Source: Bacteroidia bacterium
Lineage (GTDB): Bacteria > Bacteroidota > Bacteroidia > SpSt-205
Assembly: GCA_026003215.1 (NCBI GenBank)
Contig: BPGV01000001.1
Span: 2,013,729 to 2,077,728, forward strand
Length of the DNA: 64,000 nt
Reading direction: 5' to 3'
Below the pieces are notes generated by a model. It made no database searches. It was not told the DNA's origin and saw nothing but the letters and a program-made list of their open reading frames with translations. Shown here in pieces: positions 60,503 through 64,000 of the stretch. A program made the position numbers and the translations under genes. Every line of letters begins with the position of its first letter. Position 1 is the stretch's first letter.

Positions 60503-61879
60503 ATGCGGTATGTGTGGGGTATGGTTTTTCTCTGTTGGGGGCAGGAGCCCCTTTCCCTAACGGACACTTTTACGATAGATCCCCGGAAGCGGCTTCGTCC
60601 TTATGAGCTTACACGGAAAAAAGAAGGCTGGATCCTTGTGGGTTATCCTGCTGTGGGATACGACCCCTTGCGTAGTATAGGGGCCGCCGTAGCCCTTACC
60701 CTGGCGTATAACGGCCGTAAGAGCGACCCTCTCTTTGCCTTCCAACCCTATCGGTACTATTTTTTCGCGCAAGTGGGCTTTTACCTGCGAGAAAGTCGGT
60801 ATGCCCGTGCTTTTATAGACATGCCTTGGTTGGGAAACCGTCCGTATCGGCTTACTTTGCGGTTTAGCTGGCGCGAGGAAACCCAAGGCCAGTTTTGGGG
60901 GATAGGGGAGCCGTTCTTGGGGAGCTACCTGGCTACGCCCCTGAAAGAATATGAGAAGAAGCTGCTCACCCCTTTCCTTCAGCCCTCTGGCCAGTGGGGC
61001 ACCCGGGTAGCCCACCATTACTTTCATACGACGCAGCTACAAGGGTGGTTGGTAGGCGAACGGATTGCATGCAGAGGACTTTTGCGGCTTTTGGGCGGGG
61101 CTCGCTGGACCACCGAACGCGCCACCTCTCTTCAAGGCAAAAGCTATACCCTCACTACTTCTGATGGCCAAAAAGTCTCCGCTACACAAGGGCCTACTTT
61201 ATTGGACAGTGCTGCGCAAGCGTATATCCCTTCGCCTCGGGGCGTTGCTTACGCCTTAGGGCGTTGGCAGCATCGCCTATTCGCAGGAGGGGCCCTCGTG
61301 TGGGATAGCCGCGACTTTGAACTCAACCCTAACGCAGGCTTCCTCCTGGAAGCCGGGCACGAAAGCCAACTCCCTACTTTTTCCGCGCATAAGTCGTATG
61401 TGGCTCTCCGCCAGTATCATACCCTCTACCAAAGCCCTTCTGAAAAAATCCAGCTCACAGGCGCTGCTCATGTCCTTTTCTCGGCGGTGTATGGGCAGTC
61501 GGTGTTTTTTACGGAGTTTTACACGTATAGCCGCTGGTCGGAAGGTCGTACGATAAACCTCCTAAGCGGGCCTTCTACGGTGCGGGCCTTCCGAGAGAAC
61601 CGTTTTGTGGTGCCCTTCACCCTGCTTGTGCAGTATGAGCTGCGCAGCCGCGTGGCTGAAGTGCGCATCCTTCGGCAGCACTTCATTGGGGGGCCGGTGG
61701 TGTTTGTGGATTGGGCCAGCGGGCGCGATAAACTGGCCTTTCCCTCGGTGAGGCGTAGCATTACAGGCGTGGGTTTGGGCGCGCGAGTCCTCTGGAATAT
61801 GGCTACGGTGTTGCGCGCCGATATAGCCTATGGGCGGGAGGGATGGCAGATGCATATCAGCACAGGACACGCTTTTTAG
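60503..61879 (+). CDS. Omp85/BamA-superfamily outer-membrane barrel without POTRA domains
   Basis: 458 residues. A short signal peptide (MRYVWGMVFLCWGQE) is followed by a beta-barrel with alternating aromatic strands and an Omp85-like end: GGGLVWDSRD-type GALVWDSRDFELNPNAGFLLEAG, then STVRAFRENRFVVP (the VRGF/LRGYR loop motif), and a final strand ending in Phe (MHISTGHAF). No POTRA repeats precede the barrel, so it is not BamA itself. Proteins like this are frequent in Bacteroidota and often annotated BamA/TamA family. Start supported by a box 5 bases upstream. It overlaps cdsA by 4 bp at the 3' end. Confidence 0.8.
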   Translation: MRYVWGMVFLCWGQEPLSLTDTFTIDPRKRLRPYELTRKKEGWILVGYPAVGYDPLRSIGAAVALTLAYNGRKSDPLFAFQPYRYYFFAQVGFYLRESRYARAFIDMPWLGNRPYRLTLRFSWREETQGQFWGIGEPFLGSYLATPLKEYEKKLLTPFLQPSGQWGTRVAHHYFHTTQLQGWLVGERIACRGLLRLLGGARWTTERATSLQGKSYTLTTSDGQKVSATQGPTLLDSAAQAYIPSPRGVAYALGRWQHRLFAGGALVWDSRDFELNPNAGFLLEAGHESQLPTFSAHKSYVALRQYHTLYQSPSEKIQLTGAAHVLFSAVYGQSVFFTEFYTYSRWSEGRTINLLSGPSTVRAFRENRFVVPFTLLVQYELRSRVAEVRILRQHFIGGPVVFVDWASGRDKLAFPSVRRSITGVGLGARVLWNMATVLRADIAYGREGWQMHISTGHAF

Positions 61880-62646
61880 AAGAGCTTGTGAAAAAGGTAC
61901 CAAAACGGGGCTACCCACAAAAGCGCATCTACTCTATCCAAGAGGCCCCCATGGCCAGGTAAAAGGGCCCCCGAGTCTTTTAGCCCCAGGGCGCGTTTCC
62001 ACGCCGACTCCCAGGCATCCCCAAAGAAGCCCACTACCGCCGTAAGCGCCCCTATACCCACCCCAGCCCATCCCGTAAAAGGACTGCCAGCCCAGCCCAC
62101 AGCCCAGTAACCCCACACAGCTGTACCCACTAACGCAGCCCCAAAGCCTTCCCACGTCTTATTCGGGCTTATGCGGGGGAGGATGCGGTGGCGACCGAAA
62201 AACTTCCCCACGAAGTACGCACTCGTATCCGCTACCCACACTAAGGACAGAAATGCCAATAACTTCTCTGGGGCATAATCCTTCCAAAATAACCCAAGCA
62301 AACTACCCCAGCCGCCCCCTATCCAAAACCAGGCCCCCATTATCCGATAGGCCCAGAAAAACCCTGCCTTCGGCTCCATAAAAAGAAGCCAGCCCCCCAA
62401 AAAAGCCATTACGCCTAATACCCAGCCATAAAATAACCCCGTCGCCAAGGGAATAAACCACAACAAACCCGTGCTTACGGTGAAGCAAAATACCAGCGAG
62501 GTCGGAAGCTTTTCGGCTTCGGCCCATTCGTACAGCAAGAGCCCCCCCACGACAAACCATAACCCCAAAAACCCTACCTTGCCTATCCCCAAGAGCCCGC
62601 CTACGATAATAAGGCCGATTATCGCAGTGAGGATGCGCTTAGCCAC
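61876..62646 (-). CDS. cdsA: Phosphatidate cytidylyltransferase (CDP-diglyceride synthase)
   Basis: Makes CDP-diacylglycerol from CTP and phosphatidic acid in the inner membrane; 256 residues, about eight membrane helices. The C-terminal signature is clear: ISPNKTWEGFGAALVG, then GDAWESAWKRALGLKDSG and LPGHGGLLDRVDALLWVAP. The start overlaps the end of the CPBP gene by 8 bases, so the pair is co-translated. Confidence 0.95.
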   Translation of the reverse strand: MAKRILTAIIGLIIVGGLLGIGKVGFLGLWFVVGGLLLYEWAEAEKLPTSLVFCFTVSTGLLWFIPLATGLFYGWVLGVMAFLGGWLLFMEPKAGFFWAYRIMGAWFWIGGGWGSLLGLFWKDYAPEKLLAFLSLVWVADTSAYFVGKFFGRHRILPRISPNKTWEGFGAALVGTAVWGYWAVGWAGSPFTGWAGVGIGALTAVVGFFGDAWESAWKRALGLKDSGALLPGHGGLLDRVDALLWVAPFWYLFHKLF

Positions 62647-63478
62647 GGAGTTTTTTATAGACTTGAAAGCCGGCGGCCCCCGCTATGGCTGCACCTACAA
62701 TAGCCAGCACAAAAGGCGGCCGATACGTAGAGGCTATCCATTCGGGATGTCCCAGCCAATGCACGCCGGCATACGCTACTACGGTCGCATAGGCATTATT
62801 GAGGAAGTGGGCCCATGCCGCTGGCCATAGCCGCCCACTCCATAAAGTTAGATACCCCATGACCACGCCTAAAAGCCACCGCGGTACCAATCCATACACT
62901 TGTAGATGCACTAAACTGAAAATAAGTCCAGTTAGCCAGACCGCAAGATGGGGATTCATCAGACGGCGAAGCTGGTACTGAAAAGCTCCCCTAAAGAAAA
63001 ACTCCTCACAAAAGCCCGGCGCCACCGCCATAAAAAGCAATAGTAAAGGGAGTGAACCGTAGGTGATGAGCTTTTGCATAATCTCTTCTACGCGGGCTTC
63101 TTGGGCTTCCAAGGCTACTTCTACCTCGTGCAGAGAAGGGGGCAGGCGAAAGGACTCCTCGTCTAATCCCAGCCAAGGGAGCACCAAAAAGAGCCCCGCC
63201 ATAAAAAGCGCAATCCACCCGTAGGTAGCTCCATCCGCGCCCACCCCTCGCAAAAGGTTCCAGCCTTCTGCTCGTCCTAATAAAGCAAAATACAAGTAAG
63301 CTGCGCCGCCAAAGGTCACCAAAAGCACAAAGGCATTCCCGCCAGCGGCTTTGTGGGCCGTAGCTGCATCCTGAATATCGGTAACCGCAAACCCCAATAA
63401 CCCGCTCAAAAGGCTGGCTACTACCAGCATAACGCCCCACAGCATGAGCAGGGCTGCTAAGCGCAAAAACTCTCGCAC
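62639..63478 (-). CDS. CPBP family intramembrane glutamic endopeptidase
   Basis: 279 residues with about eight membrane segments. The conserved CPBP motifs are present: the catalytic Glu pair in APGFCEEFFFRGAFQYQL, a His in LIFSLVHLQVYG, and the C-terminal AHFLNNAYA. Family members cleave prenylated or membrane proteins or act as bacteriocin-immunity proteins. GTG 63478 is preferred over a TTG two codons upstream because that TTG is part of the -7 box, three bases before the GTG. Confidence 0.87.
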   Translation of the reverse strand: MREFLRLAALLMLWGVMLVVASLLSGLLGFAVTDIQDAATAHKAAGGNAFVLLVTFGGAAYLYFALLGRAEGWNLLRGVGADGATYGWIALFMAGLFLVLPWLGLDEESFRLPPSLHEVEVALEAQEARVEEIMQKLITYGSLPLLLLFMAVAPGFCEEFFFRGAFQYQLRRLMNPHLAVWLTGLIFSLVHLQVYGLVPRWLLGVVMGYLTLWSGRLWPAAWAHFLNNAYATVVAYAGVHWLGHPEWIASTYRPPFVLAIVGAAIAGAAGFQVYKKLRG

Positions 63479-63481
63479 AAG

Positions 63482-63489
63482 CAAAAGTA
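63482..63489 (-). promoter_or_regulatory. -7 box TACTTTTG for the CPBP gene
   Basis: Exact TAnnTTTG match on the minus strand, three bases before GTG 63478. One base separates it from the divergent box of the ABC gene. Confidence 0.65.
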
Positions 63490-63490
63490 C

Positions 63491-63498
63491 TACCTTTG
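63491..63498 (+). promoter_or_regulatory. -7 box TACCTTTG for the ABC ATPase gene
   Basis: Exact TAnnTTTG match, six bases before GTG 63505, in back-to-back arrangement with the CPBP box. Confidence 0.65.
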
Positions 63499-63504
63499 CT
63501 TCCA

Positions 63505-64000
63505 GTGCTTATAGAACTGCGGGAAGTCAGTAAAGTTTTTTCCACGCCGCGGGGACCTGTGGTGGCCTTAGATGCGGTGGAGGCCGCTCTCCCCGAAGGA
63601 AAGGTCATAGGGTTGTTAGGGCCAAACGGTTCAGGCAAGACCACGCTCTTGCGCATTTTGGTGGGGCTTCTGCAGCCGGACAGCGGGGAGGTTCGGTATG
63701 CAGGGCAGCCCTTGTCTCGAGAAGTGTGCCGCCGCTTCGGGTACATGCCGGAGGAACGCGGCCTCTATCCCAAAACTGCTGCTAAAGACCAACTGCGCTA
63801 CCTTTTGCAGCTACGCGGCTTTAGCCGCTCGGACGCCGAAAAAGAGATTCGCTACTGGGCAGAAAGGCTGCACATGCCTTGGCTGGATAGGCCCGCCCGA
63901 GCCCTCTCTAAAGGCATGCAACAAAAAGTACAGCTCACCTTGGCCCTGGCAGGCAGCCCCGAACTCCTGCTCTTAGATGAACCTTTTTCGGGGTTAGACC
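63505..64000 (+). CDS. ABC transporter ATP-binding protein (NatA/CcmA type), 3' end cut by window
   Basis: Open frame from GTG 63505 to the window end, 165 codons visible. VLIELREVSKVFS starts the domain; Walker A LLGPNGSGKTTLLRIL, the Q-loop region YMPEERGLYPK, the signature ALSKGMQQKVQL (SKGM instead of SGGM/Q, common in this subfamily) and Walker B LLLLDEPFSGLD can all be read. PEERGLYP is typical of NatA/YhaQ-like exporters whose partner is an ABC-2 permease, which should follow outside the window. The start has no ATG and rests on the box six bases upstream. Confidence 0.88.
   Translation, partial: MLIELREVSKVFSTPRGPVVALDAVEAALPEGKVIGLLGPNGSGKTTLLRILVGLLQPDSGEVRYAGQPLSREVCRRFGYMPEERGLYPKTAAKDQLRYLLQLRGFSRSDAEKEIRYWAERLHMPWLDRPARALSKGMQQKVQLTLALAGSPELLLLDEPFSGLD

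Follow-up and report, generated by a model that had tools for sequence, protein, structure and literature searches.

Two divergent genes in the window, by which we mean the whole 64,000-nucleotide stretch that was analysed, have GTG start codons separated by only 26 bases. This raises the question of how both genes are transcribed from so small a space and whether their packing couples their expression.

Start codons and promoter boxes at the junction

On the reverse strand is a gene predicted to encode a CPBP (Rce1-like) intramembrane protease 279 aa long (62639..63478, -; PF02517, E 1.4e-20). Downstream of it is a gene for a CTP_transf_1 (CdsA-like) cytidylyltransferase (61876-62646, -; PF01148, E 3.6e-49). 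On the forward strand is a gene predicted to encode a DrrA-like ABC transporter ATPase 300 aa long (63505..64000, +; PF00005, E 1.6e-28; PF13732, E 3.7e-9). This gene exceeds the end of the window; the whole gene is at L002:3234-4136, and downstream of it is a gene for an ABC-2 type permease (L002:4133-5320; PF12698, E 7.2e-23). Scans of the window with Rfam and for tRNAs gave no matches. There are 29 matches to a type IX secretion tail, which support assignment to the Bacteroidota.

The N-termini of CPBP orthologues have M or V at or near the residue encoded by the GTG at 63476..63478 (-), and orthologues of the ABC ATPase begin near the residue of the GTG at 63505..63507 (+). The TTG start codons in a mechanical list of open reading frames fall inside the promoter boxes and were rejected on the basis of these orthologue N-termini.

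Between 63470 and 63510 the window reads ...CTCTCGCAC AAG CAAAAGTA C TACCTTTG CTTCCA GTG CTT.... Two exact copies of TAnnTTTG, the -7 box of Bacteroidota sigma-A promoters, are located here back to back. The box for CPBP, TACTTTTG (63482..63489, -), is 3 nt 5' of the GTG at 63478 and the box for the ABC ATPase, TACCTTTG (63491..63498, +), is 6 nt 5' of the GTG at 63505, with a single C at 63490 as the spacer between them. Together they form a 17-bp near-palindrome, CAAAAGTAcTACCTTTG. The sequence CAAAAGTANTACCTTTG occurs only once in the 2.27-Mb genome. An initial annotation of this DNA had described these boxes with their strands and coordinates, the one-base gap and the 26-base separation, and every letter of that description is exact. 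From the geometry of the boxes, together with the orthologue N-termini, transcription is predicted to start at or within the GTG codon of CPBP and at 63504-63505 for the ABC ATPase (leader of 0-1 nt). The initial annotation had further called the site two divergent leaderless promoters. The near-abutting -7 boxes and the leaderless geometry in this claim stand at the level of sequence, with leaders of 0-2 nt as a prediction.

The -7 box as a general gene start

A bare match to TAnnTTTG means little, since its raw count in the window barely exceeds that expected by chance (40 versus 29.4, with 3 of 100 shuffles reaching 40). The significance of the box comes from its position relative to start codons and from back-to-back pairing rather than from its raw count. 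We sampled 464 kb of the genome, consisting of the window and 20 evenly spaced stretches, with 396 ORF-based gene calls. The box is present within 60 nt 5' of the start in 115 of the 396 genes; the distance is 3-8 nt in 94 of these and most often 4 nt. For two control patterns similar to the box in composition, the totals over the whole 60 nt were 6 and 5 of the 396 genes, with no peak. Across the genome, TAnnTTTG-N4-ATG occurs 223 times versus 16 for the reversed pattern, and this ratio is similarly high across the family and low in most of the class. A box next to the start codon was the commonest promoter position found in the family and declines outside it. As far as sequence can tell, TAnnTTTG at 3-8 nt before the start is the general gene start of this genome.

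In Flavobacterium psychrophilum the same box is found at -12 to -5 (PMC9723704), so with a 4-nt spacing +1 would coincide with the first base of the start codon. The boxes of the CPBP/ABC pair, at 3 and 6 nt, are placed for transcription to start at the start codon, and both transcripts are probably leaderless judging from this geometry.

Promoters of Bacteroides fragilis also carry a -33 element, and the initial annotation had reasoned that the upstream element of each promoter must lie inside the coding sequence of the other gene. When 218 distinct leaderless promoters of the genome were aligned on the box, a -33 consensus was absent from them, unlike in B. fragilis. Neither was there a TTG or TTTG signal roughly 20 bp 5' of the box; TTG was present within -27..-15 in 12% of the 218 promoters versus 10% and 6% in control stretches. 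Thus, no element inside the other gene is needed and that claim is unsupported. Because the -33 element is weak in the Bacteroidota, its absence does not remove these promoters from the box-based class. The information outside the box in the 218 promoters is limited to a mild preference for A 6-8 bases upstream, small biases before the TA, and the start codon. An apparent T bias seen with 96 promoters was gone when the set was enlarged to 218. When the gap is a single base, the positions with this mild A preference in each promoter coincide with the AAA of its neighbor's box, and the close spacing may cost nothing.

Conservation and frequency of back-to-back boxes

We compared the junction with 11 relatives in the family, using ORF-based gene calls. 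The initial annotation had made its proposal depend on both boxes being conserved in close relatives, and they are. CPBP orthologues are present in 10 other family genomes and, including that in the window, 11 of 11 have TAnnTTTG without a mismatch 3-5 nt 5' of the start. An exact box is present 2-6 nt before the start in seven of eight ABC orthologues, including the one from G001. Seven of the 12 family genomes retain the two genes in divergent orientation, and both boxes are exact in six of these seven, the exception being G005, where the ABC box is degenerate. The one-base spacing, for which a survey of the lineage had been proposed, is not conserved; the gaps in the six junctions with both boxes exact are 1 (window), 6, 4, 12, 4, and 11.

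In G004, G008, and G010 the CPBP gene has no adjoining ABC gene and the CPBP box is still present. In G001 (L053) the ABC gene is elsewhere in the genome, divergent to a gene that by eye resembles superoxide dismutase, and carries a separate box 4 nt 5' of its start. Each box thus survives without the partner gene, indicating that it belongs to its own gene and that the junction contains two autonomous promoters. This does not agree with the suggestion in the initial annotation that the two genes might be expressed from one shared site. For the superoxide dismutase-like gene of G001 there is likewise a box, TATCTTTG, 4 nt 5' of the ATG. In G008 (L005), a gene read by eye as a YifB/ComM-like Mg-chelatase is divergent to CPBP in the place of the ABC gene.

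Back-to-back boxes were counted with the pattern CAAAnnTA-N0-25-TAnnTTTG and compared with a reversed control. The genome contains 60 such pairs versus 2 for the control, and a further 47 versus 1 at gaps of 26-55. In 41 of the 60 pairs, each box has within 9 nt the start codon of an ORF 60 or more codons long. Our 464-kb sample contains 66 divergent gene pairs; by extrapolation, roughly one fifth of the divergent gene pairs in the genome (60 of roughly 320) have back-to-back boxes no more than 25 bp apart. The 12 family genomes contain 26-60 pairs each, for a total of 480 versus 14 for the control. In most other families of the class the counts are near those of the controls. Two distant genomes of the same class and other families, G051 and G059, have 122 versus 19 and 92 versus 32 back-to-back boxes, and G051 has 356 copies of TAnnTTTG-N4-ATG versus 75 for the control. 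The clear excess in these two genomes raises the possibility that leaderless packing of divergent genes evolved on more than one occasion.

Pooled over the 12 genomes, gaps of 0, 1, 2, 3, and 4 bases occur 2, 9, 23, 12, and 14 times, and gaps of 5-25 have a mean of 20 per base. Poisson probabilities are 5e-7 for gap 0 and 0.005 for gap 1, values that ignore shared ancestry and treat orthologous pairs as independent although they are not. Pairs with gap 0 are clearly scarce, and those with gap 1 probably are as well, which puts the pair in the window near the lower limit. The scarcity of gaps of 0-1 suggests a physical floor on promoter spacing. The genome contains two more one-base gaps, at 775478 and 1458867, and one of these has both starts in place. 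A preference for tight gaps was considered and rejected, since the number of pairs per base stays level above gap 1 and drops at gaps of 0-1. The pair in the window is an ordinary example of gene packing in this family and no special switch.

Boxes that overlap through a shared TA were also counted; there are 4 in the genome versus 3 for the control, and with no enrichment they were rejected as a class.

A second abutting junction was observed at L066:7283-7301 (G000:C1:947283-947301), between a PIG-L/BshB1-like deacetylase gene with an HPDD motif and a gene for a secreted PKD-type protein, both named by eye. This junction is also found at L123, L127, L129, L136, and L137, with a gap of 3-4 and the near-identical letters CAAATCTAC..GTAGCTTTG. 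It is kept in the six genomes checked and in about nine by a list of pattern matches, and its box variants are rare elsewhere. From these letters, tight spacing at the BshB1-like junction does look conserved.

Interpretation of the pair and relation to known promoters

We consider it likely that the junction holds two independent promoters of the Bacteroidota primary-sigma (sigma-A) type, placed back to back and giving rise to leaderless mRNAs for both operons. Each promoter would consist of little beyond the TAnnTTTG box, and RNA would start at, or no more than 2 bases from, the GTG start codon. The outputs would be a leaderless mRNA for the CPBP protease operon on one side and one for the ABC exporter operon on the other. 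Such promoters need neither a leader nor a distant upstream element, which leaves divergent genes free to lie so close together that their boxes touch. Two observations count against this explanation: the 6-nt distance from box to start on the ABC side in the window is off the genome mode of 4 nt, and one relative that keeps the divergent arrangement has the degenerate ABC box noted above. From their spacing, a polymerase on one box would be expected to block the other box. This exclusion should apply to every such pair with a gap in the 0-25 range, and would have little effect on output at ordinary promoter strengths unless one side were strongly activated. Dedicated co-regulation of the pair is probably absent.

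An unlikely extension of this explanation to the family would hold that a promoter amounts to nothing more than its -7 box and that divergent promoters whose boxes abut, at gaps of about 1-4 bp, are a recurrent and obligately exclusive class with a physical floor of about one base. Tight spacing would then have been selected for coupling at certain junctions, among them the BshB1-like one with its gap of 3-4 in many genomes, and the pair in the window would be an extreme member whose spacing is not conserved. It is more doubtful still that the CPBP/ABC junction is a selected regulatory switch, in which a polymerase going one way silences transcription the other way and the two operons, for the protease and the exporter, alternate as a result. 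Steric exclusion of two polymerases is what the geometry leads one to expect, and the divergent arrangement has been kept in more than half of the family genomes. However, the gap drifts between 1 and 12 bases, the pair is broken in G001, G004, G008, and G010, and the same architecture is found at dozens of functionally unrelated pairs. In addition, five bidirectional promoters of Escherichia coli showed no competition at basal activity and competed only upon strong activation of one side (PMC12825309). The expression in alternation expected by the initial annotation does not follow from steric exclusion, then; it is possible and not implied.

These E. coli promoters provide a model for a single symmetric promoter used in two orientations, a reading that we regard as highly improbable at this locus. 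Many E. coli promoters fire both ways off one shared or overlapping -10 element, where the commonest distance between starts is 18 bp and distances of 10 and 23 bp also occur (PMC12825309), and the 17-bp site in the window is nearly palindromic. The bidirectional promoters described by Warman, Grainger, and co-workers in E. coli and other prokaryotes likewise have their divergent starts only some tens of bases apart and expected polymerase exclusion. By contrast, the junction has two complete, separate boxes rather than a shared or overlapping core element, with a gap of 1 here and of 4-12 in relatives, and shared-TA overlaps are not enriched. Each box is conserved singly, and the predicted starts are about 26-28 bp apart, and farther apart in relatives, rather than at the preferred distances. 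Of all these readings, we give the least credence to the idea that the palindrome is an operator through which a dimeric protein regulates the two operons and that its likeness to -7 boxes is secondary. Its dyad symmetry is located exactly between the divergent genes. Yet both halves fit the genome-wide start box at the spacing seen before start codons, and the separation of the half-sites among relatives, 1-12 bp, is one that a fixed dimer would not tolerate. We therefore retain two autonomous, probably leaderless promoters as the explanation.

Many genes in the leaderless transcriptomes of mycobacteria and Deinococcus-Thermus have a core box a few bases 5' of the start codon. The placement near the start is the same there, in a different phylum and with a different box (compare PMC3898074). 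The sigma-A promoters of B. fragilis and Flavobacterium have the same TAnnTTTG box as the promoters described here, and at the same position relative to the predicted start (PMC9723704). In F. psychrophilum only 5.5% of mRNAs are leaderless (PMC9723704), whereas a box next to the start, from which we infer leaderless transcription, is the most frequent promoter position here. A 2011 survey that searched only for a Pribnow-type box found leaderless genes in 1 of 37 Bacteroidetes/Chlorobi genomes (2.4%) (PMC3160421), and other authors have suspected leaderless mRNAs in the phylum (PMC5397173). In the literature available to us, our search found no direct precedent for leaderless divergent pairs in the Bacteroidetes. 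The -7 box itself is a known Bacteroidota element; what appears to be new is its widespread, probably leaderless, back-to-back use at the level of a family. These results point to a family of Bacteroidota with widespread leaderless transcription from promoters consisting of a -7 box only. They also provide a natural series of spacings, one-base gaps included, for testing when neighboring polymerases interfere. If the leaderless starts predicted here are correct, low use of leaderless mRNAs would not be a property of the whole phylum.
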